A DNA stretch of 64,000 nucleotides, from positions 1 through 64,000 of the IMG/VR virus record IMGVR_UViG_3300048918_000116, one strand, 5' to 3'. Below, piece after piece: positions 11,864-59,210 of this stretch (position 1 is its first letter; each line of letters opens with the position of its first letter). This stretch comes from a virus. Below the pieces are notes generated by a model. The model was not told the DNA's origin. It saw only the letters and a program-made list of their open reading frames with translations, and searched no databases. The position numbers and the translations under genes are program-made.

Positions 11864-12277
11864 TTAATTGCCGTCGGTCAGCGTAAATGTGCTGATGGTA
11901 ACAGTTTGACCTGTTGCAATATTGATATTATCCAGTTCCATATCGCCGCCACCAGAGGTAGCAGTAATTGTACCTTGAATATGGCAAACTGTGCCAGCAG
12001 CATTATAGATACGGAAATGGCCGGCATTCGTACCTGCGCCAGCATTGGCGTGACCAGTACCGGACCATGTACCAGCCTTAGCCTTTACGCCACCGGACGA
12101 TGCACCCATAAAGTCAGAAGGAAGAGCAACTTCCAAGCACTTTGTACCAGAGTCAGCAGTCGCTGGAGTTGCAGGAGGAGAACCTGAAAAGATCCGCAGC
12201 ATTGGCGTGGTGCTGATAGCCGTTTCAATCGCGTCGTTACGAGCATCCTTTACGGTGTCGCTCATCTTAATAGTCAT
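11864..12277 (-). CDS. Virion decoration-type protein
   Basis: This 137-residue protein starts at 12277 with AAGGA eight bases upstream. It contains TPMLRIFSGSPPATPATADSG, a pattern seen in small phage structural proteins downstream of coat genes, and GHFRIYNAAGTVCHIQGT, then a Thr-rich tail. It lies directly downstream of the coat terminator and upstream of the large repeat protein. It probably decorates the capsid or anchors the repeat protein. No enzymatic motif is seen. Confidence 0.6.
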   Translation of the reverse strand: MTIKMSDTVKDARNDAIETAISTTPMLRIFSGSPPATPATADSGTKCLEVALPSDFMGASSGGVKAKAGTWSGTGHANAGAGTNAGHFRIYNAAGTVCHIQGTITATSGGGDMELDNINIATGQTVTISTFTLTDGN

Positions 12278-12315
12278 GATATTTCCTTATTGATTACCAC
12301 ACTATATTTAGAACA

Positions 12316-12338
12316 AAGCCCGGAACAAGTCCGGGCTT
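12316..12338 (-). terminator. Terminator after the coat protein gene
   Basis: A 9-bp perfect stem AAGCCCGGA/TCCGGGCTT with a 5-base loop lies 20 bases past the coat stop codon. On the minus strand it is followed by TGTTCT, a weak T-run, so it is probably a partial terminator that boosts coat message relative to downstream genes. Confidence 0.75.
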
Positions 12339-24156: not shown

Positions 24157-24191
24157 GGCAGTTGCCTTTCTGGTTGTGGTTGGGGGGGGGG

Positions 24192-30567: not shown

Positions 30568-30870
30568 ATGCTAACTACTCGCACTCAAGTTATTAACTAC
30601 CTTGTAACCCAAGGTAAGCCCGAAAACTTCGCTCGCGCAATGACTAATGAATTTCTGAACTGGGATAGCAACCCAAATGATCCAGACTTCGTTCCCGACC
30701 TAATTTGGTTTACTGAGCCATCGCATAAAGATTCCGATGTAGTAAGCATTACCGAAAAAGAAGCACTCAAGTTTTATGACGATTTTATGGGCTACGGAGT
30801 AGAACTCACTCCTGACGGTATCACATTCGATTATGACTTAACCTTCGACACTCAAGGCAATTACCTTTAA
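30568..30870 (+). CDS. Unknown protein, paralogue of the gene at 26332
   Basis: The 100-residue product starts MLTTRTQVINYLVTQGKPEN and ends GVELTPDGITFDYDLTFDTQ plus GNYL. Both ends match the protein at 26332. Both genes have the same promoter type, which suggests the promoter and gene were duplicated together. Its stop codon abuts the first hammerhead ribozyme. Confidence 0.7.
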   Translation: MLTTRTQVINYLVTQGKPENFARAMTNEFLNWDSNPNDPDFVPDLIWFTEPSHKDSDVVSITEKEALKFYDDFMGYGVELTPDGITFDYDLTFDTQGNYL

Positions 30871-30920
30871 CCACACTGACGAGTTCATAGGAACGAAACC
30901 TCTGCGAAGAGGCCTGTGGT
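30870..30920 (+). ncRNA. Hammerhead ribozyme 1 (type I)
   Basis: Stem I is ACCACA/TGTGGT. The core CTGACGA (30876-30882) is followed by stem II GTTC-ATAG-GAAC, core GAAA (30895-30898) and stem III CCTCT-GCGA-AGAGG. All conserved core bases are present. Cleavage is predicted after C30914. The one deviation is at the cleavage triplet: it reads GCC, so A15.1 faces C where U is usual, which could slow cleavage. The ribozyme begins at the stop codon of the upstream gene and ends 27 bases before the next ATG. Confidence 0.8.
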
Positions 30921-30946
30921 CAACAACAATTTGAAAGGAGCTAACT

Positions 30947-31288
30947 ATGCACAATATTCCACTCAACACGCACATTGAATCGTTCGACCGTGAATCTGCG
31001 CTCGTGGATGAAGTGTGCCCTCTTACGGATACGCCACTCAACCTAGAAGAAGGCAATTATGTTTTCTTCTACGACTATCCGATGAACGAAGATGTTTGTT
31101 TCAATCATCGCCTAACGCCAGCAATGAGCGTTATTGATGTGCTTCTGTTAGCAACAGAAGATTACAAAGAAATCTACAAGGACTATGACAATACTTGGGG
31201 GGGGGGCCACAGTCTGAATAACCTTTTCTTTGAAACGGTTCGCATTGCACCGCAGACCAAGGAAGTTTGCTTTAATATTGGTTCGTAA
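30947..31288 (+). CDS. Unknown protein with a coding G10 tract
   Basis: The 113-residue protein starts MHNIPLNTHIESFDRESALV after GAAAGGAG. It contains two Cys sites (VCPLTDTPLNLEEGNYVF and EDVCFNHRL). The codons for WGGGH include a run of ten G (31197-31206), prone to slippage in replication or sequencing. The predicted message start created by hammerhead cleavage lies 32 bases upstream. Confidence 0.62.
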   Translation: MHNIPLNTHIESFDRESALVDEVCPLTDTPLNLEEGNYVFFYDYPMNEDVCFNHRLTPAMSVIDVLLLATEDYKEIYKDYDNTWGGGHSLNNLFFETVRIAPQTKEVCFNIGS

Positions 31289-31290
31289 CT

Positions 31291-31464
31291 ATGAAAGTTC
31301 TAACCGCACCCACAGCACTCGCACTCATTGCAGCAATGCACGAGATTGTCAAAGGTGAGTCCGAGTTCTGCACTTGGGAAATAGTTCATAACCCAACTGG
31401 TATGTCAATCCTCATCTTCAACAGTGCAAGTGAAGTAATTGGTGAAGTTAAACAGTCGTATTAA
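31291..31464 (+). CDS. Small unknown protein
   Basis: ATG at 31291 lies two bases after the previous stop, so translation is probably coupled. The 57-residue product starts MKVLTAPTALALIAAMHEIV and continues with beta strands (TGMSILIFNSASEVIGEV). No family is recognised. Confidence 0.6.
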   Translation: MKVLTAPTALALIAAMHEIVKGESEFCTWEIVHNPTGMSILIFNSASEVIGEVKQSY

Positions 31465-31476
31465 CTGGAGTCAATA

Positions 31477-31653
31477 ATGGCAATTCACTTATTGTACGTC
31501 TACATTGAAGAAGGTGACGGAATGTCTGAAAATGCGCTGGAAGAAGCAGTGCATGACGGTAACTACGTTGATCTTACTCTGTCAAACAATATGGCGCTAG
31601 TAGTTAGTGCCAAGGAAATGTTGGATGATTATATTGCATTGAAAGGAATTTAA
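31477..31653 (+). CDS. Small acidic unknown protein
   Basis: The 58-residue product starts MAIHLLYVYIEEGDGMSENA and ends DDYIALKGI, with the next ATG immediately after its stop. CTGGAG lies upstream. No family is recognised. Confidence 0.6.
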   Translation: MAIHLLYVYIEEGDGMSENALEEAVHDGNYVDLTLSNNMALVVSAKEMLDDYIALKGI

Positions 31654-31890
31654 ATGGCCTTCTTTGAACCTACACAAGAACGTATTGATTATCTTATCGA
31701 CATGTATAGTGAAGGTGGTTTTGAGTCTGCTATGATTACTGAGAAATCAGATCATCATTACTACGAAACCGAATTGCAAGATATCGGTCCATTGTATATT
31801 ATGGATGATTTTGGCAATGCACAAATTGTGGCCTTTGAAATGTTCGGACAGGAAATGTTCATCTTTCCTCCACTCAAAGTTTTAACTTAA
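31654..31890 (+). CDS. Small unknown protein
   Basis: The start directly follows the previous stop codon (TAAATG). The 78-residue product is acidic (MAFFEPTQERIDYLIDMYSE) with hydrophobic strands near its end (VAFEMFGQEMFIFPPLKVL). AAAGGA lies inside the previous gene. No family is recognised. Confidence 0.6.
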   Translation: MAFFEPTQERIDYLIDMYSEGGFESAMITEKSDHHYYETELQDIGPLYIMDDFGNAQIVAFEMFGQEMFIFPPLKVLT

Positions 31891-31901
31891 CAGGACAACT
31901 A

Positions 31902-32090
31902 ATGGACCAACATCTTATTCGTTACCTCGCGCTCATAGCGGCAGCGAACGCCCGTGTGGCAGGTATGCAAGCGGAGAACAAGCTCAACGAGTTCTACCAA
32001 GTGCGTCCAGCTTATGGTGAAGACCACTTTAATGCGATCGCCAACGAGCTTGAAGCTTTATCTACTGAAATAGTCAACTACAGAGGTTAA
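31902..32090 (+). CDS. Small helical unknown protein
   Basis: The 62-residue product starts MDQHLIRYLALIAAANARVA and is predicted to be helical throughout, ending EALSTEIVNYRG. The gene is one base from the next start. No family is recognised. Confidence 0.58.
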   Translation: MDQHLIRYLALIAAANARVAGMQAENKLNEFYQVRPAYGEDHFNAIANELEALSTEIVNYRG

Positions 32091-32091
32091 T

Positions 32092-32601
32092 ATGACTTTT
32101 GATGAATTATACAATGAATCGCTAACGCGTCTTGATGCTTACATAGCGACTCAGAAAACCCAAGACCAAATCCTTGACGCTAAGCATGTAAAGCGCCATG
32201 TTGAAATCAACAAAAGGTTTTACGAGCACCGTCACGCTAAAGGCGAGCTCCTGTATATTTGCAGCTCTTGCGGTCAGCTTGAAGCGGCTACTTACACGGA
32301 GCCAACCCGAACCCAAATGCTCGATCGCAATGTTTGCTTTCATTGCAATTACTGGGCAGAAATTGTTACCGAACATCCGGTAAATCGCGTCATTGTTGAC
32401 GGTAAAGTGTACAGCGACGCGGGTAATGATGACGGGCATTCTATCAGCAGGTTCCGCGGTCACGGTGGGCATGTATGGCACATTCAAGACGGTAACGGAC
32501 ATCGCTGGGAGACTAACAACCTCTGGTTCAATGGTGTCGTTCCAGAAGAGTATCGTGTCAAATTGCCTGACAACGCCAAGTTTCTTTATCCTAACAAATA
32601 G
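32092..32601 (+). CDS. Protein with a CxxC...CxxC zinc-ribbon-like site
   Basis: This 169-residue protein has ICSSCGQL near residue 57 and NVCFHCNYW near 83, a four-Cys zinc-binding arrangement. The C-terminal half contains SRFRGHGGHVWHIQDGNGHR and WETNNLWFNGVVPEEYRVKL, a His- and Gly-rich segment seen in similar uncharacterised phage proteins. The N-terminus is a charged helix. It may bind nucleic acid. The function is unknown. Confidence 0.62.
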   Translation: MTFDELYNESLTRLDAYIATQKTQDQILDAKHVKRHVEINKRFYEHRHAKGELLYICSSCGQLEAATYTEPTRTQMLDRNVCFHCNYWAEIVTEHPVNRVIVDGKVYSDAGNDDGHSISRFRGHGGHVWHIQDGNGHRWETNNLWFNGVVPEEYRVKLPDNAKFLYPNK

Positions 32602-32610
32602 GAGGATATT

Positions 32611-32844
32611 ATGACTGAACGGGCAACAGCATTCTCAACACCTGACGAAATTTCTTACTTTCGTTTCGCATCAATTAAGCAGCGTTTGAAGCTTGAATCG
32701 GTCGGCCTTAAGTTTCGTGGCGGCAGTACACGAAGTCTGGTCGCCAAAGAGTTTGGTCTTAAGCCGCGAGCACCGTTCGCAGAATACATCGCCTACTGTG
32801 AATCGCAAATGGCTATTCTGATTGCCAAAAAGAAGCAATCTTGA
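32611..32844 (+). CDS. Small basic unknown protein
   Basis: The 77-residue protein follows AGGAGG. It starts MTERATAFSTPDEISYFRFA, then IKQRLKLESVGLKFRGGSTR and SLVAKEFGLKPRAPFAEYI, a pattern seen in uncharacterised phage proteins. It is the last gene of the segment bracketed by the two hammerheads. Confidence 0.62.
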   Translation: MTERATAFSTPDEISYFRFASIKQRLKLESVGLKFRGGSTRSLVAKEFGLKPRAPFAEYIAYCESQMAILIAKKKQS

Positions 32845-32939
32845 ATAGTGAACCAATCCAAAAATGTTACAATTAATCTTTAGCGTTTAGCTGCATTTTA
32901 GCGCACAATGTAATTGTACCGCAGCAGCAAGCAATATCA

Positions 32940-33004
32940 GCCACACTGATGACGACCTTAATGGTTGAAACCCGCAATCTTCAATCTTCACGCGGGTCTG
33001 TGGC
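32940..33004 (+). ncRNA. Hammerhead ribozyme 2 (type I)
   Basis: Stem I is GCCACA/TGTGGC. The core CTGATGA (32946-32952) leads to stem II GACC-TTAAT-GGTT, core GAAA (32967-32970), stem III CCCGC/GCGGG with a 16-base loop, and the canonical cleavage triplet GTC (32996-32998) with A15.1-U16.1 paired. Cleavage is predicted after C32998, 38 bases before the ATG at 33037. The deviation is one extra C (32953) between the core and stem II, where a G-C pair is usual. Confidence 0.8.
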
Positions 33005-33036: not shown

Positions 33037-34194
33037 ATGACTGCACAGAAATCCAGCAGCAAGTCTGCAACCAAAAGCCAGCCAAAGCCGGCCAATAAGT
33101 CTGCGGCGAAGCCCGTTCAGGTGGCACCGCAAACTACGGTCGCGTCGGTACAAGAGCCGTCAGCTGCTCAAACCGCTGAAAGCTCGGCCGCTCCGAACAT
33201 TGTGCAAGCATTACTTGCCAATCCGGATATGTCTACCAAGCTGACCAAGCTGGCCTACGAAACAGGTGTACTGCCTGACCGTCGTCAGGACGAACGCCGC
33301 CACGATGGTGACAATGCAATGCAGTTCGCGGTGACGCAACTCACCACTCCGGCAGCAAGCGCAGCAGCTAGCACCGAAACCGCACTTGCACCGTTTACAG
33401 CACCCCCAAGCGAACCGCAAGCTAGCGCACCGCTTACAGCACCGACAGCAGCACCCGCAAGCGTACCAACAGCAGCAACAGCGGAAATGAATCCGACGCA
33501 ACTGGCACAGTTTCAGGCTGCAATGCTTGCACTTGGTCAGCAGTTCGGAATGCCGGCGGAAGTTATTCAGAACCTCAGCAATCCTTCAACACTGTTGGCT
33601 ACTACGCCGCGTTCAGCGAAGGATACACGGAACAGTATTACTCGTCCCGGCGCTGATACGAAGACCGGCAAGGTGTGGGCAATAGGCGATGCAATTAGTA
33701 TGCAGAAAGGCGGTACGCCAGAAACTACGCCAGCAAGCATTGCTGAACTGAAGGCGCACCCTGACCTTCGCCAGTTTAATGACCACACTATCCGGACGCA
33801 ATATGCTCGCTGGAGGCAATATTACGGCGTAAGCGGTCGCGTTCAGTCGGAAATGGTTTCTGCGCCGGCTACCAAGCCAACGCAAAAGGCGTTCCCGAAA
33901 ATGACTGATGACGACTTCGCACGTTACATGGATTTGCGTAGCCGTGGTCAGTTGGATGAGGGTTACAAAGAATGGCTTGACTTTGAAGAATATCGTCGGA
34001 ATCCCGCAGCAGGGAATGCAGCAGCCGGCCAAGCTCAAGCACCAAAGCAGTTCGCACCAACCGAAGCACCGATTGGGCCAATGGCTGATGAAGTTTACAA
34101 CAGGCTTCTTCTGTTGAAGAACAACAACACGCTGCCAATCAACTTCCAAGCAGCATTTGACGCTGAAACCGCTCGCCGGGCCTCAGCAGCGTAA
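33037..34194 (+). CDS. Ala/Pro-rich protein with a GKVWxIxDxI...TQYARW domain
   Basis: ATG at 33037 follows CAGGAG, giving 385 residues. Residues 1-150 are low-complexity Lys/Ala/Pro/Thr sequence. Around 195-265 lies the shared domain (SITRPGADTKTGKVWAIGDA, then NDHTIRTQYARWRQYYG). The C-terminus is another linker plus helices (DDDFARYMDLRSRGQLDEGY). Three other proteins here carry the domain. I infer a DNA-binding, chromatin-like or regulatory role, but no family function is known to me. Its message would begin at the hammerhead 2 cut. Confidence 0.65.
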   Translation: MTAQKSSSKSATKSQPKPANKSAAKPVQVAPQTTVASVQEPSAAQTAESSAAPNIVQALLANPDMSTKLTKLAYETGVLPDRRQDERRHDGDNAMQFAVTQLTTPAASAAASTETALAPFTAPPSEPQASAPLTAPTAAPASVPTAATAEMNPTQLAQFQAAMLALGQQFGMPAEVIQNLSNPSTLLATTPRSAKDTRNSITRPGADTKTGKVWAIGDAISMQKGGTPETTPASIAELKAHPDLRQFNDHTIRTQYARWRQYYGVSGRVQSEMVSAPATKPTQKAFPKMTDDDFARYMDLRSRGQLDEGYKEWLDFEEYRRNPAAGNAAAGQAQAPKQFAPTEAPIGPMADEVYNRLLLLKNNNTLPINFQAAFDAETARRASAA

Positions 34195-34205: not shown

Positions 34206-34299
34206 TTGAAGCCGGAGAGGGCAACTTCTCCGGTTATTTGCGTTCGCTCTTGTAAAGCTTCAACGATAGGCCCTTTGCCTATCGTGGGCGCTTTGCCCA
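34206..34299 (+). terminator. Terminator inside a multi-hairpin intergenic RNA
   Basis: CCGGAGA/TCTCCGG (34212-34233) followed by TTATTT looks like a terminator. It is enclosed by TTGAAGC/GCTTCAA (34206-34212 and 34257-34263), then CGATAGG/CCTATCG (34264-34284) and TGGGC-GCTTT-GCCCA (34285-34299). The last hairpin ends 16 bases before the protease ATG and may affect its translation. Confidence 0.65.
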
Positions 34300-34314: not shown

Positions 34315-35253
34315 ATGAAACCCAATCTTAAGCTCAAGATTTTGCCATTGCTAGTGTTATCAGCATGCGGCGGCGGAGCTCCCGACCATGTACTCACCAG
34401 CACAGTAGGCGACACACCTGTTCAGTGCGAAACATTCCTCACACCGAACTCATCGCCCAACACAGCTACGACCAATTGCATTAGTCCGACGCTGCCGTTT
34501 CAGCCCACAGTGCAGCCAGCTTTGCCTCCCGGCGTAACCGCGCCAATTCCTCCGCAAGTGCCAACTACACCTGCGAAGGTCGTCAACGCACCGACGACAG
34601 CACCCACAGCGTCGCCAACCGCACCAACAATGGCCACTCCGGTTCTGGTAGTCAGCGCACCTAGCGTTAGCTATTCGCAACGGGCAACTTCCGACCGTAC
34701 CGACGAGCAAAGCAAGCAGCAAATTCACGTCATATACCTGCTCGCTAAAGGCGCCGTTGATCGCAACCTTGACAGAGTTGGTAGCATTCAGAATTACACC
34801 GACGCTATGAATAGCTGGCTTACTGATCGTACTAGCCAGAAATTCAACTTTGACCGTTATCAAAGTTACGTTGATGTAACTACGATAGCTTTGTTGAATG
34901 AAGATAGCTGGTACGATAGCCAGCCTAACCAGTTCAAACGCGATGCTATCGAGAACGAGCTACTGACTCGCGGCTTCGTAAATAGCGCCAACAAGCGTTA
35001 TCTTGTCTTCTACGAAGGCTACAACCCTGACGGTAACTGCGGCGATTCAAGAAACGTAACTAGCATCCTTTATCTGCTCGCTGCGGATGGCCGTTGCGCA
35101 ACCGAGCTTGTCGCCATACATGAACTCCTTCATAACTTCGGTGCAGTTCATAGCAGCGTCCCGAACGATATCATGTATAGCGGCCCGCTTAACCGTTCCA
35201 CCAGCTACACAATCACCGCGTCCGAACTCAAAGGCGCTTACTTGGAGCAATAA
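34315..35253 (+). CDS. Lipoprotein zinc metalloprotease (metzincin-like)
   Basis: The 312-residue product has a signal peptide with a lipobox LSAC (cleavage before Cys18; Gly at +2 suggests the outer membrane). Residues 30-120 are a Pro/Thr-rich linker. A catalytic domain follows, with HELLHNFGAVH at about 269-279, matching the HExxHxxGxxH zinc signature, and NDIMYSG nearby as a possible Met-turn. Cys pairs (NCGDSR, GRCATEL) may form disulphides. A surface protease could prevent superinfection, cut host proteins or help release. It is unusual in a phage genome. GGAGG precedes the start. Confidence 0.82.
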   Translation: MKPNLKLKILPLLVLSACGGGAPDHVLTSTVGDTPVQCETFLTPNSSPNTATTNCISPTLPFQPTVQPALPPGVTAPIPPQVPTTPAKVVNAPTTAPTASPTAPTMATPVLVVSAPSVSYSQRATSDRTDEQSKQQIHVIYLLAKGAVDRNLDRVGSIQNYTDAMNSWLTDRTSQKFNFDRYQSYVDVTTIALLNEDSWYDSQPNQFKRDAIENELLTRGFVNSANKRYLVFYEGYNPDGNCGDSRNVTSILYLLAADGRCATELVAIHELLHNFGAVHSSVPNDIMYSGPLNRSTSYTITASELKGAYLEQ

Positions 35254-49279: not shown

Positions 49280-50011
49280 ATGCACATCCTTATTGATAGA
49301 GAAGATCTTTGCTTGCTGTATAAGCATCCAAACTTTTCCGTAATAGACAACTTGCGGCATATTGAATGCCAAAAGAAATGTGTCATTACGGACTTGCAAG
49401 GCAAAGATACAGTATTTGGCGACATGACCGATCTGGAGCTGCGACTGCTACACCGGAATTTGTGTGGTCAAAGCTTCAGTGGCTACAGCCGTCCTCATTT
49501 AATCGCGACCGTAGCAGCTATGTGTGACGCTGCTCCGATTGCAGATGTTAATCCGCTGGAAGTTGAGCTTCAAGCAATGCAGATTGATATGGACGATGAT
49601 GCGGAGTATCGGTATGCGCCGGGGTGTGCGACAGCAAGTGAGCAGCAGTATTTAAACCGCTTACAAGCGTTTAAAACTAGCCCCCTAGTGTTACCCTTAA
49701 TACCCCCCGAAAAACCGCTTGCAGCACCCTCGCCGCAGTACCTAGCACTATTAGCAGCACATGCAGCGCATGCAGCACCGAGCGCACCGCGAGAGGCACG
49801 TGAGTCTAATCCGTCCACATACGTTCCACCTAAAGGCGGAAGCAAGACCGGACGTGTATGGGAGATTGCCGAGCCTATTTGGGCAGCGGCAGCAAAGCCA
49901 GAGAATTGGAAAGAGATTCGGAAAGCAATTGTTGAAGCTTGCGAAGCCGAAGGTATTAATGGATCAACAGCATCTGTCCAATATGGTAAGTGGAAGCAAA
50001 CTAAATTGTAG
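49280..50011 (+). CDS. Protein with GRVWEIxE...SVQYGKW C-terminal domain
   Basis: The 243-residue product starts MHILIDREDLCLLYKHPNFS. Residues 1-90 form an alpha/beta domain, 105-185 are an Ala/Pro-rich linker, and the last 60 residues (GGSKTGRVWEIAEPIWAAAA, then GINGSTASVQYGKWKQ) are the domain shared with the genes at 33037 and 50121 and, weakly, 24847. A regulatory or DNA-binding role is inferred. It has its own extended -10 promoter. Confidence 0.65.
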   Translation: MHILIDREDLCLLYKHPNFSVIDNLRHIECQKKCVITDLQGKDTVFGDMTDLELRLLHRNLCGQSFSGYSRPHLIATVAAMCDAAPIADVNPLEVELQAMQIDMDDDAEYRYAPGCATASEQQYLNRLQAFKTSPLVLPLIPPEKPLAAPSPQYLALLAAHAAHAAPSAPREARESNPSTYVPPKGGSKTGRVWEIAEPIWAAAAKPENWKEIRKAIVEACEAEGINGSTASVQYGKWKQTKL

Positions 50012-50027
50012 TATCTGAAAAAAGCAC

Positions 50028-50056
50028 TTGCATTTAAAAACGGTTCGCGCTATATT
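50028..50056 (+). promoter_or_regulatory. Strong sigma70-type promoter
   Basis: TTGCAT (50028-50033) and TATATT (50051-50056) are separated by 17 bases, 65 bases before the ATG at 50121. It likely drives the Lys/Ala-rich protein and possibly the RNA cluster after it. Confidence 0.78.
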
Positions 50057-50120
50057 TAAACCTCATTCGCGAGAATGGTTAATTAACCAAATTTCAAACA
50101 TTATCTAATCGGAGTTCCAA

Positions 50121-50741
50121 ATGGAAAACACAGAACAAGCCGCAATCGACGCAGCAAATGCCAAAGCCGCTGCCGAAGAAGCAAAGGCACTCGCTAAGGC
50201 ACAGGCTGACGCTGCAAAGGCTGAAGCAAAAGTAAAAGCTGACGCTGCTCGTGCAGAAGCAAAGGCTGCAAAAGACGCTGCTGCTAAAGCTGTCAAAGAA
50301 GCAAAAGAAGCTGCTGCTGTCCAGGCCAAGGCTGCAAAAGAAGCTGCCGCTGCTGAAGCAAAAGCAAAGAAAGATGCCGAAGTCGCTGCCAAGAATGAAG
50401 CCAAGGCTGCTGAAGCTGCTGCCAAAGCTCAAGCAAAGGCTGAAGCTGCTGCAACAAAAACCAAAGTTGTCATGCCTTCGCAGAACGGTATCACCCGTCC
50501 TCGTCCTGACGGTGCTTGCGGTAAAGTCTGGGCAATTGCTGATGCAATCTCGCAACGTATCGGCCAAGCTGCGCCGATCAATCTGTTGGCACCGGAATGC
50601 TCCGCTGCCGGCTTGAACGACGCGACAACTCGCACTCAGTACGCTCGCTGGAAGACTTTCAACGGCGTGTTCGGCGCAGTACCGAAGTACACTGCTCAGG
50701 TTGTTGAAACTGCCGCTGCTACTGAAACCGTCGTTGCGTAA
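50121..50741 (+). CDS. TolA/H1-like Lys-Ala coiled coil fused to the GKVWxIxDxI domain
   Basis: The 206-residue protein has two parts. Residues 10-110 are a long Ala/Lys/Glu helix (EAKALAKAQADAAKAEAKVK and further copies), like histone H1 tails or TolA. Residues 117-180 are the shared domain (TRPRPDGACGKVWAIADAIS, then GLNDATTRTQYARWKTFNG). It follows a strong promoter, has few rare residues and looks abundant. A DNA-binding, nucleoid-like protein is my best inference. Confidence 0.68.
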   Translation: MENTEQAAIDAANAKAAAEEAKALAKAQADAAKAEAKVKADAARAEAKAAKDAAAKAVKEAKEAAAVQAKAAKEAAAAEAKAKKDAEVAAKNEAKAAEAAAKAQAKAEAAATKTKVVMPSQNGITRPRPDGACGKVWAIADAISQRIGQAAPINLLAPECSAAGLNDATTRTQYARWKTFNGVFGAVPKYTAQVVETAAATETVVA

Positions 50742-50828: not shown

Positions 50829-50983
50829 CTCGAGATAGCTCAGATAGGTAGAGCACCACGTAGTAGATGTAATAGGCGACATGCTTGAGGCTGGAAACGC
50901 GCGTTGCGCTGGAACCTCCAATATAGCTGAGTAACTAGACATCTTTATTGTGGAGGTCGAAGGTTCAAATCCTTCTCTTGGGT
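50829..50983 (+). tRNA. tRNA-like gene 2 with a long insert in the anticodon arm
   Basis: Acceptor CTCGAGA/TCTTGGG, D arm GCTC-AGATAGGTA-GAGC and T arm GAAGG-TTCAAAT-CCTTC are canonical, and the variable loop is AGGTC. The anticodon stem CCACG/TGTGG can form, but the loop is opened by about 90 bases. The insert is closed by AGATGT/ACATCT and contains GAGG/CCTC and GCGC-GTT-GCGC hairpins. No CCA is encoded. It could be an intron-containing tRNA or a tRNA-derived RNA with another role. A group I intron is excluded by its small size. Confidence 0.6.
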
Positions 50984-50997
50984 CAAGTAACACAATT

Positions 50998-51069
50998 CTC
51001 GAGATAGCTCAGTCGGTAGAGCAGTCGTGACGGCGAAGGTCGTGGGTTCGAGTCCCACTCTCGAGGCCA
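50998..51069 (+). tRNA. tRNA-like gene 3 with a shortened anticodon arm
   Basis: Acceptor CTCGAGA/TCTCGAG, D arm GCTC-AGTCGGTA-GAGC, T arm GTGGG-TTCGAGT-CCCAC, discriminator G and encoded CCA are all canonical. Only 13 bases lie where a 17-base anticodon arm is expected; GTCG-TGA-CGGC could make a 4-bp stem with a 3-base loop. No standard anticodon can be read. It may be a decoy, a pseudogene or a tRNA-like RNA. Confidence 0.6.
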
Positions 51070-51072
51070 ATT

Positions 51073-51201
51073 CTCAAGATAGCTCAGTCTGGTAGAGCGC
51101 CAGGAACTTGCAGAGTGAAACGTCGGCCGAAGGCTCAGTAACCTGTCAAGTTGTACTGTATATAAAGAGGTCGGAGGTTCAAATCCTTCTCTTGAGAGCC
51201 A
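51073..51201 (+). tRNA. tRNA-like gene 4 with a long insert after the D arm
   Basis: Acceptor CTCAAGA/TCTTGAG (8 bp if T51072 pairs with A51197), D arm GCTC-AGTCTGGTA-GAGC, variable loop AGGTC, T arm GGAGG-TTCAAAT-CCTTC and encoded CCA (51199-51201) are present. About 75 bases lie between D arm and variable loop. AACTTG/CAAGTT and CAGG/CCTG within it would cross as a pseudoknot. A weak arm TTGTA-CTGTATA-TAAAG next to the variable loop resembles a tRNA-Tyr (GUA) anticodon arm with one mismatch, which would place the insert after position 26. Confidence 0.55.
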
Positions 51202-51322
51202 ACATTAGACTCAGTTAGCGGTTAGTCACCGTTTGTGGGGTGAAACTCCTGACTAGGGGAGTAGCTCTATACGACGACCGGACGCCTCAGAAACGACGGA
51301 TAATAGCTGAGTCTAATGTTGG
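51199..51322 (+). ncRNA. 16-bp stem-loop starting at the CCA of tRNA-like 4
   Basis: CCAACATTAGACTCAG (51199-51214) is the exact reverse complement of CTGAGTCTAATGTTGG (51307-51322). Inside, CGGT-TAGTC-ACCG can form a hairpin whose loop pairs with GACTA downstream, a possible pseudoknot. The first bases are the tRNA CCA. The same CCAACATT...AATGTTGG arrangement follows tRNA-like 1. It separates the odd tRNA-like genes from the normal tRNA-Leu. Confidence 0.72.
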
Positions 51323-51325
51323 TGT

Positions 51326-58022: not shown

Positions 58023-59210
58023 ATGAAAGTTATTAACGACGAAGGTTCCAAGCCGATCAAGATTTGGACCGACGATATTGAGGATGCGGCGCTGACGCAG
58101 TTGAAGAATCTGGCGCGCTTGCCGTTCATCGCTGGCAATGGTGTTGCGTGTATGCCGGACGTTCATGCTGGCATTGGCTCCACGGTTGGGACGGTGATAG
58201 CTACCGACAAAGCGATTATTCCGGCTGCGGTCGGCGTCGATATTGGTTGTGGAATGAATGCAGTGCGTCTGTCGTTAAAAGCTTCCGACCTGCCAGAAAG
58301 CTTGGTAAATATCCGCCACCAAATTGAGCGGGATATTCCGCTTGGCGCAGGTGGAGCGCATTCTAGAATTGCGCCACAAGGACAACACACATTATGGGCA
58401 GATGTTCCTGACTCTGTGTTTCAAGTAACTGGCGGAAGCGCAAAGTTCTATAAGAAGGCGGAACCGCAGCTAGGCACGTTGGGCTCAGGCAACCATTTTA
58501 TTGAGCTGTGCTTAGATGAGAACCAAGACGTATGGATTATGCTGCACTCTGGTTCACGCGGCATTGGCAACATGATTGGCATGTATTTCATTGAAAAAGC
58601 CAAGCGCCGAATGGAGCAATATTTCATTAGCTTGCCAGACGGCGATCTTGCTTACTTCCCTGAAGATACAGACGAATTTAATGAATACGTTGAGGCAGTA
58701 GGTTGGGCGCAAAACTATGCTTTGGAAAACCGTCGCATGATGATGCAGCTAGTAATTGCAGCGTTGCGCCGCCATATTCCGATTGAATTCACAATCACCC
58801 AAGAAGCAATTAACTGCCACCATAACTACGTCGAGAAGGAAAACCACTTTGGACGGAACCTTTGGGTCACGCGAAAAGGCGCTATTCGAGCACGTGAGGG
58901 CGACCTTGGGATTATCCCAGGCTCAATGGGACAGAGAAGTTACATCGTCCGTGGCAAGGGAAATCCTGAATCATACTGCTCTTGTTCGCACGGAGCTGGG
59001 CGTAAAATGTCTCGCAGTAAGGCTCGTAAAGTCTTTACTATTGCTGACCTAAAAGAACAAACTGCTGGCGTTGAATGCCTTAAAACAGACGCCGTACTAG
59101 ATGAAATTCCAGGCGCTTACAAGAACATTGACGATGTTATGAACAACCAGAAAGACTTGGTTGAAATCGTTCATACTCTAAAACAGGTCTTGTGCGTTAA
59201 GGGGGCATAA
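58023..59210 (+). CDS. rtcB: RNA ligase RtcB
   Basis: The 395-residue protein matches RtcB throughout: MPDVHAGIGSTVGTVIATDK, PAAVGVDIGCGMNAVRL with the Mn-binding Asp/Cys, QLGTLGSGNHFIELC, MLHSGSRGIGNMIG, EAINCHHNYVEKENHFG, PGSMGQRSYIVRGKG, and CSCSHGAGRKMSRSKA with the guanylated His. It uses GTP to join 2',3'-cyclic phosphate or 3'-phosphate to 5'-OH RNA ends. Hammerhead ribozymes leave exactly these ends, and tRNAs cut by host anticodon nucleases also do. The start follows AGGAG; the stop overlaps the next gene. Confidence 0.95.
   Translation: MKVINDEGSKPIKIWTDDIEDAALTQLKNLARLPFIAGNGVACMPDVHAGIGSTVGTVIATDKAIIPAAVGVDIGCGMNAVRLSLKASDLPESLVNIRHQIERDIPLGAGGAHSRIAPQGQHTLWADVPDSVFQVTGGSAKFYKKAEPQLGTLGSGNHFIELCLDENQDVWIMLHSGSRGIGNMIGMYFIEKAKRRMEQYFISLPDGDLAYFPEDTDEFNEYVEAVGWAQNYALENRRMMMQLVIAALRRHIPIEFTITQEAINCHHNYVEKENHFGRNLWVTRKGAIRAREGDLGIIPGSMGQRSYIVRGKGNPESYCSCSHGAGRKMSRSKARKVFTIADLKEQTAGVECLKTDAVLDEIPGAYKNIDDVMNNQKDLVEIVHTLKQVLCVKGA

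Follow-up and report, generated by a model that had tools for sequence, protein, structure and literature searches.

The window, the whole stretch of DNA that was analysed, comprises 64 kb out of a 71,244-base IMG/VR phage contig. In its central part, two type-I hammerhead ribozymes of the same orientation, designated HHR1 and HHR2, lie on either side of seven small ORFs. An earlier note on this DNA had placed the hammerheads at 30870–30920 and 32940–33004 on the plus strand, with cut sites after C30914 and C32998, and seven ORFs at 30947–32844 between them; both placements were borne out, the former by a descriptor and by a covariance model. The features considered here are the following:

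30870–30920, plus strand: HHR1, type-I hammerhead by sequence, fold, descriptor and covariance model; stem I 30870–30875/30915–30920, core CUGACGA 30876–30882, stem II 30883–30886/30891–30894, GAAA 30895–30898, stem III 30899–30903/30908–30912, C16.1 at 30913, cut position after C30914
30915–30946, plus strand: 32-nt leader left after the predicted HHR1 cut, with the Shine-Dalgarno (SD) site GAAAGGAG and without a 5'-terminal hairpin
30947–32844, plus strand: seven small ORFs starting at 30947, 31291, 31477, 31654, 31902, 32092 and 32611, tightly packed with gaps of 0–12 nt
32868–32918, plus strand: inverted repeat TACAATTA / TAATTGTA
32940–33004, plus strand: HHR2, type-I hammerhead by the same four lines of evidence; stem I 32940–32945/32999–33004, core CUGAUGA 32946–32952, extra C at the base of stem II 32953, stem II 32954–32957/32963–32966, GAAA 32967–32970, stem III 32971–32975/32992–32996, U16.1 at 32997, cut position after C32998
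32999–33014, plus strand: 5'-terminal hairpin of the HHR2 downstream product, UGUGGC-AGGU-GCCACG, predicted at -8.4 kcal/mol
33037–34194, plus strand: gene directly 3' of HHR2, 385 aa, with a C-terminal helical domain common to two paralogs
34210–34235, plus strand: terminator-like hairpin of 11 pairs, 3' of the 33037 gene
58023–59210, plus strand: rtcB, 395 aa (PF01139, E 5.5e-130), 25 kb away

The predicted piece between both cut sites (30915–32998) thus measures 2,084 nt and carries all seven genes. The TAA stop codon upstream of HHR1 (30868–30870) overlaps the ribozyme, and HHR2 begins 95 nt after its upstream stop codon, inside a gap of 192 nt that precedes the downstream gene. The inverted repeat at 32868–32918 lies within this gap, upstream of HHR2, and is possibly an operator or promoter region. 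Runs of ten G residues are found at 24182–24191 and at 31197–31206, the second falling within ORF 30947; they are possibly phase-variable tracts or assembly errors.

Using a strict descriptor (CUGANGA, GAAA and three stems) on both strands of the 64 kb, only HHR1 and HHR2 were matched, Markov shuffles giving 0.007 matches per window. We trained a covariance model on 27 hammerheads of other viral contigs (phages), leaving out the window; it scored HHR1 at 49 bits (E 3.2e-10) and HHR2 at 43 bits (E 1.1e-8), with the next-best candidate at 11 bits, and detected no third hammerhead in the whole 71,244-base record. Both elements show the CUGANGA and GAAA core and the three helices of a type-I hammerhead open at stem I, and the MFE fold is a three-way junction in each case. 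Rfam 15, at the gathering threshold and at E<=5, reported neither HHR1 nor HHR2; since it was also silent on five contigs with canonical hammerheads, its miss in the window is a failure of sensitivity.

At the core, HHR2 has an A15.1–U16.1 pair and a normal GUC at the cut position. In HHR1, A15.1–C16.1 replaces A–U and the cleavage triplet is GCC; of the 45 phage hammerheads collected, 44 have U at position 16.1 and HHR1 alone has a C. Changes at 15.1/16.1 reduce activity at least 10-fold according to a previous study (PMC3088659). Judged by its sequence, HHR1 cutting may be slowed because of the C at 16.1.

Through a DNA pattern search of IMG/VR, we collected dozens of phage hammerheads, several contigs holding tandem series of 2–7 in one orientation. 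A second DNA pattern, from which the 5' arm of stem I was omitted, returned 73 stretches, nearly all by chance, two of which satisfy the descriptor, one of these weakly. The large terminase has 23 relatives at 71–83% identity, including four contigs already caught by the ribozyme pattern. The near-full-length terminase clade, six contigs of 69 kb or more, comprises the phage's own record (two hammerheads), G021 (three), G023 (two), G005 (three), G004 (one) and G028 (at least three). In the hammerheads of other phages, 99% of stem cells pair and compensatory changes are present, a result partly forced by the collecting descriptor. An SD-preceded start codon follows the cut by 5–81 nt in 28 of 31 distinct hammerheads (median 39 nt; HHR1 32 nt, HHR2 38 nt), the other three having none within 250 nt, and the upstream stop codon lies within about 1 nt of the hammerhead in 16 of the 30 scored.

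The 33037 gene has relatives in eight related contigs. A single-sequence search with its protein gave no relatives (a terminase search did yield them), and the family of its C-terminal domain is present in many phages. The domain search also gave uncharacterised phage proteins and one named 'transcriptional activator', and a fold search with the domain returned weak matches only (Z below 5) to assorted helix-turn-helix and other small helical domains. The two paralogs of this domain are located at 49280–50741, adjoining a tRNA cluster. A hammerhead stands directly 5' of the 33037 ortholog in G023 (43 nt), G026 (36 nt) and G019 (41 nt), as in the window (38 nt), and 132 nt ahead of it in G028; in G018 and G028, a hammerhead core lies 7–8 nt past the stop of the ortholog. 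Counting against leader processing, in G005, G004 and G018 the hammerhead comes after the conserved neighbour gene and not directly before it. Hammerhead positions elsewhere than beside the 33037 gene differ among relatives. Promoter and terminator scans were just slightly above shuffles. Beyond the terminator-like hairpin, at 34315–35253, we observed a lipoprotein-like ORF with a zincin motif and a weak Peptidase_M10 match.

The predicted 5'-terminal hairpin of the HHR2 product is built from the 3' strand of stem I and a copy of its complement that lies further downstream. In the uncut HHR2 RNA, the best folds with stem I (-31.5) and with the hairpin (-31.2) are nearly equal in energy. A first count of such hairpins, in which G-U pairs were allowed, was uninformative (31 observed vs 30 expected) and was superseded by an energy-based test. 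Over 45 non-redundant hammerheads, the best 5'-terminal hairpin averages -3.13 kcal/mol, compared to -1.41 for shuffled and -2.32 for swapped leaders; with the window removed, the observed mean was reached by none of 3000 shuffles and none of 3000 swaps, and with one hammerhead per contig the test gave 0 (shuffled) and 0.007 (swapped). For stem-I strands other than GUGG, the mean is -2.23 vs -0.99 in swapped controls, and the greater strength of these hairpins indicates covariation. About half of the collected hammerheads, HHR1 included, are without a strong 5' hairpin. No earlier description of a 5'-terminal product hairpin of this kind came to light in the literature consulted. Emory, Bouvet and Belasco reportedly found in 1992 that 5'-terminal stem-loops stabilise E. 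coli mRNAs.

Taken together, these results suggest a model, which we regard as probable, in which HHR1 and HHR2 are intercistronic, cis-acting mRNA-processing elements that cut leaders before the next SD-ATG. During plus-strand transcription of the operon, each hammerhead would fold after the upstream gene and cut the transcript about 30–40 nt before the next start codon with its SD site, and the downstream message would receive a uniform short leader with a 5'-OH. At HHR2, cutting would free the 3' strand of stem I to form the hairpin at the very 5' end; this refolding would render the cut irreversible and should protect the message from 5'-end-dependent decay (RNase E/RppH). As the terminator-like hairpin at 34210 ends the 33037 gene, HHR2 and this hairpin would together frame a monocistronic mRNA. 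HHR1 would act likewise ahead of the seven genes, C16.1 probably making it slow; its core change and its lack of a 5' hairpin count against leader processing at this site, as do, for the model in general, the hammerheads that have no strong hairpin or no SD-preceded start codon nearby and the one (L033) that stands before a tRNA. Motif identity, placement, recurrence beside the 33037 gene and the covarying 5' hairpin are all features of the sequences themselves, from which we infer cleavage in the cell, stabilisation of the message and a benefit for expression. Trimming of 5' leaders, which the earlier note had offered as its second option, is thereby supported, in a more specific form, by comparative evidence (placement, recurrence and product hairpin).

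The cuts might instead chiefly serve the upstream messages, the 2',3'-cyclic phosphate and the hammerhead body blocking 3' exonucleases, or the messages becoming separate units. Hammerheads do abut upstream stop codons, also behind the 33037 ortholog in the two relatives named above, and Perreault et al. 2011 propose operon- or gene-length mRNAs (PMC3088659). As the main function we nevertheless consider this unlikely, since it leaves two features unexplained, the covarying hairpin on the downstream product and the near-constant spacing between the cut and the next SD-ATG; the upstream and the leader-processing functions are mutually compatible. Still less probable, in our estimate, is that we are dealing with selfish or decaying elements that have no function in expression, with HHR1 as a decaying copy. 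Its core change and the variable positions among relatives (except beside the 33037 gene) would fit such an origin, but the pairing and compensatory changes of the stems in other phages (partly descriptor-forced, as noted), the near-invariance of position 16.1 and the constraint on leader length and placement argue against it.

The earlier note had favoured another outcome, in which the RNA between the cuts (30915–32998) is circularised by the phage's RtcB into a stable polycistronic circular message. The end chemistry is right in principle, and the complete rtcB that the note had reported at 58023 proved to be intact. Moreover, in the window pair the HHR2 arm GCCACA can form 6 bp with the 5' end UGUGGU and could thereby draw the ends together, and G021, the sole other clade member with rtcB, likewise has several hammerheads. 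However, four of the six near-full-length clade genomes hold hammerheads without rtcB, a count to be read with the reservation that a few genes may be missing from contigs of 69 kb or more and that a host RtcB is possible; and just 3 of 26 hammerhead-bearing contigs have rtcB, which is a lower bound since many of them are partial. Nor does end complementarity behave as a selected property: among 21 neighbouring hammerhead pairs it averages 2.5 bp vs 2.1 bp between different phages (P 0.23), with zero complementary bp in 10 of the 21. The seven-gene block is not bracketed by hammerheads in the relatives examined, HHR1 has its core change, and the 5' end of the downstream product tends to be locked in a hairpin. 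In comparable arrays, circular products had been suggested and looked for without being detected (PMC3088659). Phage rtcB is normally read as RNA repair (PMC7824862). The gene is common in phages (658 INPHARED records), and its neighbours here are queuosine-type genes, QueC and DpdA-like as assigned from sequence. In some bacteria, rtcB is accompanied by a Ro60/TROVE gene; none was found in this phage. Hammerheads without rtcB, unmatched ends, a block that is not conserved and the altered core of HHR1 leave the circle a minority reading, which is not supported and which we hold to be very improbable. The same scant likelihood attaches to a version in which the 2,084-nt RNA would be ligated by RtcB into a translated circular message, with the altered core of HHR1 setting the ratio of circular to linear forms.

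The earlier note had also said that its author knew of no described phage system that pairs bracketing hammerheads with its own RtcB, a statement that holds in part. A literature search, with most subscription papers outside its reach, indeed found no work on phage hammerheads and RtcB; clusters of hammerheads flanking gene blocks in prophages, together with the suggestion of a circle, had however been published in 2011 (Perreault et al. 2011, PMC3088659). The same paper reports that tandem hammerheads of prophages cut themselves both in vitro and in E. coli, some having been shown to cleave, and proposes processing into gene- or operon-length mRNA (PMC3088659). As in those clusters, two or more same-orientation hammerheads lie on either side of a single gene or a short gene block in phage DNA. 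Unlike those clusters, the present elements belong to a defined phage clade, recur beside one gene family, and combine a near-constant distance to the next SD-ATG with a covarying 5'-terminal hairpin, of which the text consulted gave no description (PMC3088659).

A second point of comparison is RiboJ, a synthetic insulator composed of the sTRSV hammerhead and a hairpin in the leader, which in E. coli increases mRNA levels about 2-fold and those of protein 2- to 10-fold (PMC6206723). Like RiboJ, the phage elements place a hammerhead in the leader, with a cut upstream of the RBS and a hairpin at or near the mRNA 5' end; unlike it, they are natural, type I and intercistronic, and their hairpin draws on the 3' strand of stem I, where RiboJ has a separate hairpin module (PMC6206723). 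By sequence and predicted fold, HHR2 shares both the distance (38 nt) and the hairpin (-8.4 kcal/mol) with this arrangement, HHR1 the distance only. By analogy, we infer that the HHR2 product hairpin would exert a stabilising effect of the same kind as RiboJ or the 5' stem-loops of E. coli. Retrozymes, viroid-like RNAs and other ribozyme-made circular RNAs also have hammerheads at both ends and RtcB-type ligase chemistry available (PMC7229834). Unlike in retrozymes and viroid-like RNAs, the phage hammerheads are dissimilar rather than copies of one repeat, the piece between them is protein-coding and 2 kb long with ends that are not co-selected, and the hammerheads are retained where rtcB is absent (PMC7229834).

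The array itself is of a known kind; what is new is the constraint on the leader, the gene that recurs beside the hammerheads and the hairpin formed by refolding. The hammerheads of the window are part of a pattern widespread in phages, whose most likely effect, judging from the sequences compared, is to shorten message leaders and leave a small hairpin as a cap. The role of phage hammerhead ribozymes has been a standing question since at least 2011, and the near-constant distance to the start codon, the recurring gene and a hairpin complete only on the cut product provide a concrete, testable answer, namely natural leader processing that would work like the synthetic RiboJ part. If true, such a system would be a source of natural insulator parts and would also offer a route to phage hammerheads that escaped the present Rfam search.

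Additional observations concern tRNAs. At 50829–51197, three odd tRNA-like elements, with anticodon arms that are abnormal or about 50–80 nt longer, adjoin normal tRNA-Leu and tRNA-Pro. A sub-threshold match to YrlA (Y RNA-like) falls at 51038–51098, in a phage that has rtcB and no detected Ro60 gene. Between tRNA-like elements, at 51200–51323, CCAACATTAGACTCAG and CTGAGTCTAATGTTGG make up a perfect inverted repeat of 16 bp whose arms are spaced by about 90 nt, possibly a structured RNA. In another contig of the collection (L033), a hammerhead on the minus strand (12250–12323) precedes a tRNA and not a message: its cut position lies exactly one base (G-1) ahead of tRNA-His (12183–12256), and its stem I is built with the acceptor strand of that tRNA. 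Judged by its sequence, this hammerhead would produce the mature tRNA-His 5' end independently of RNase P.
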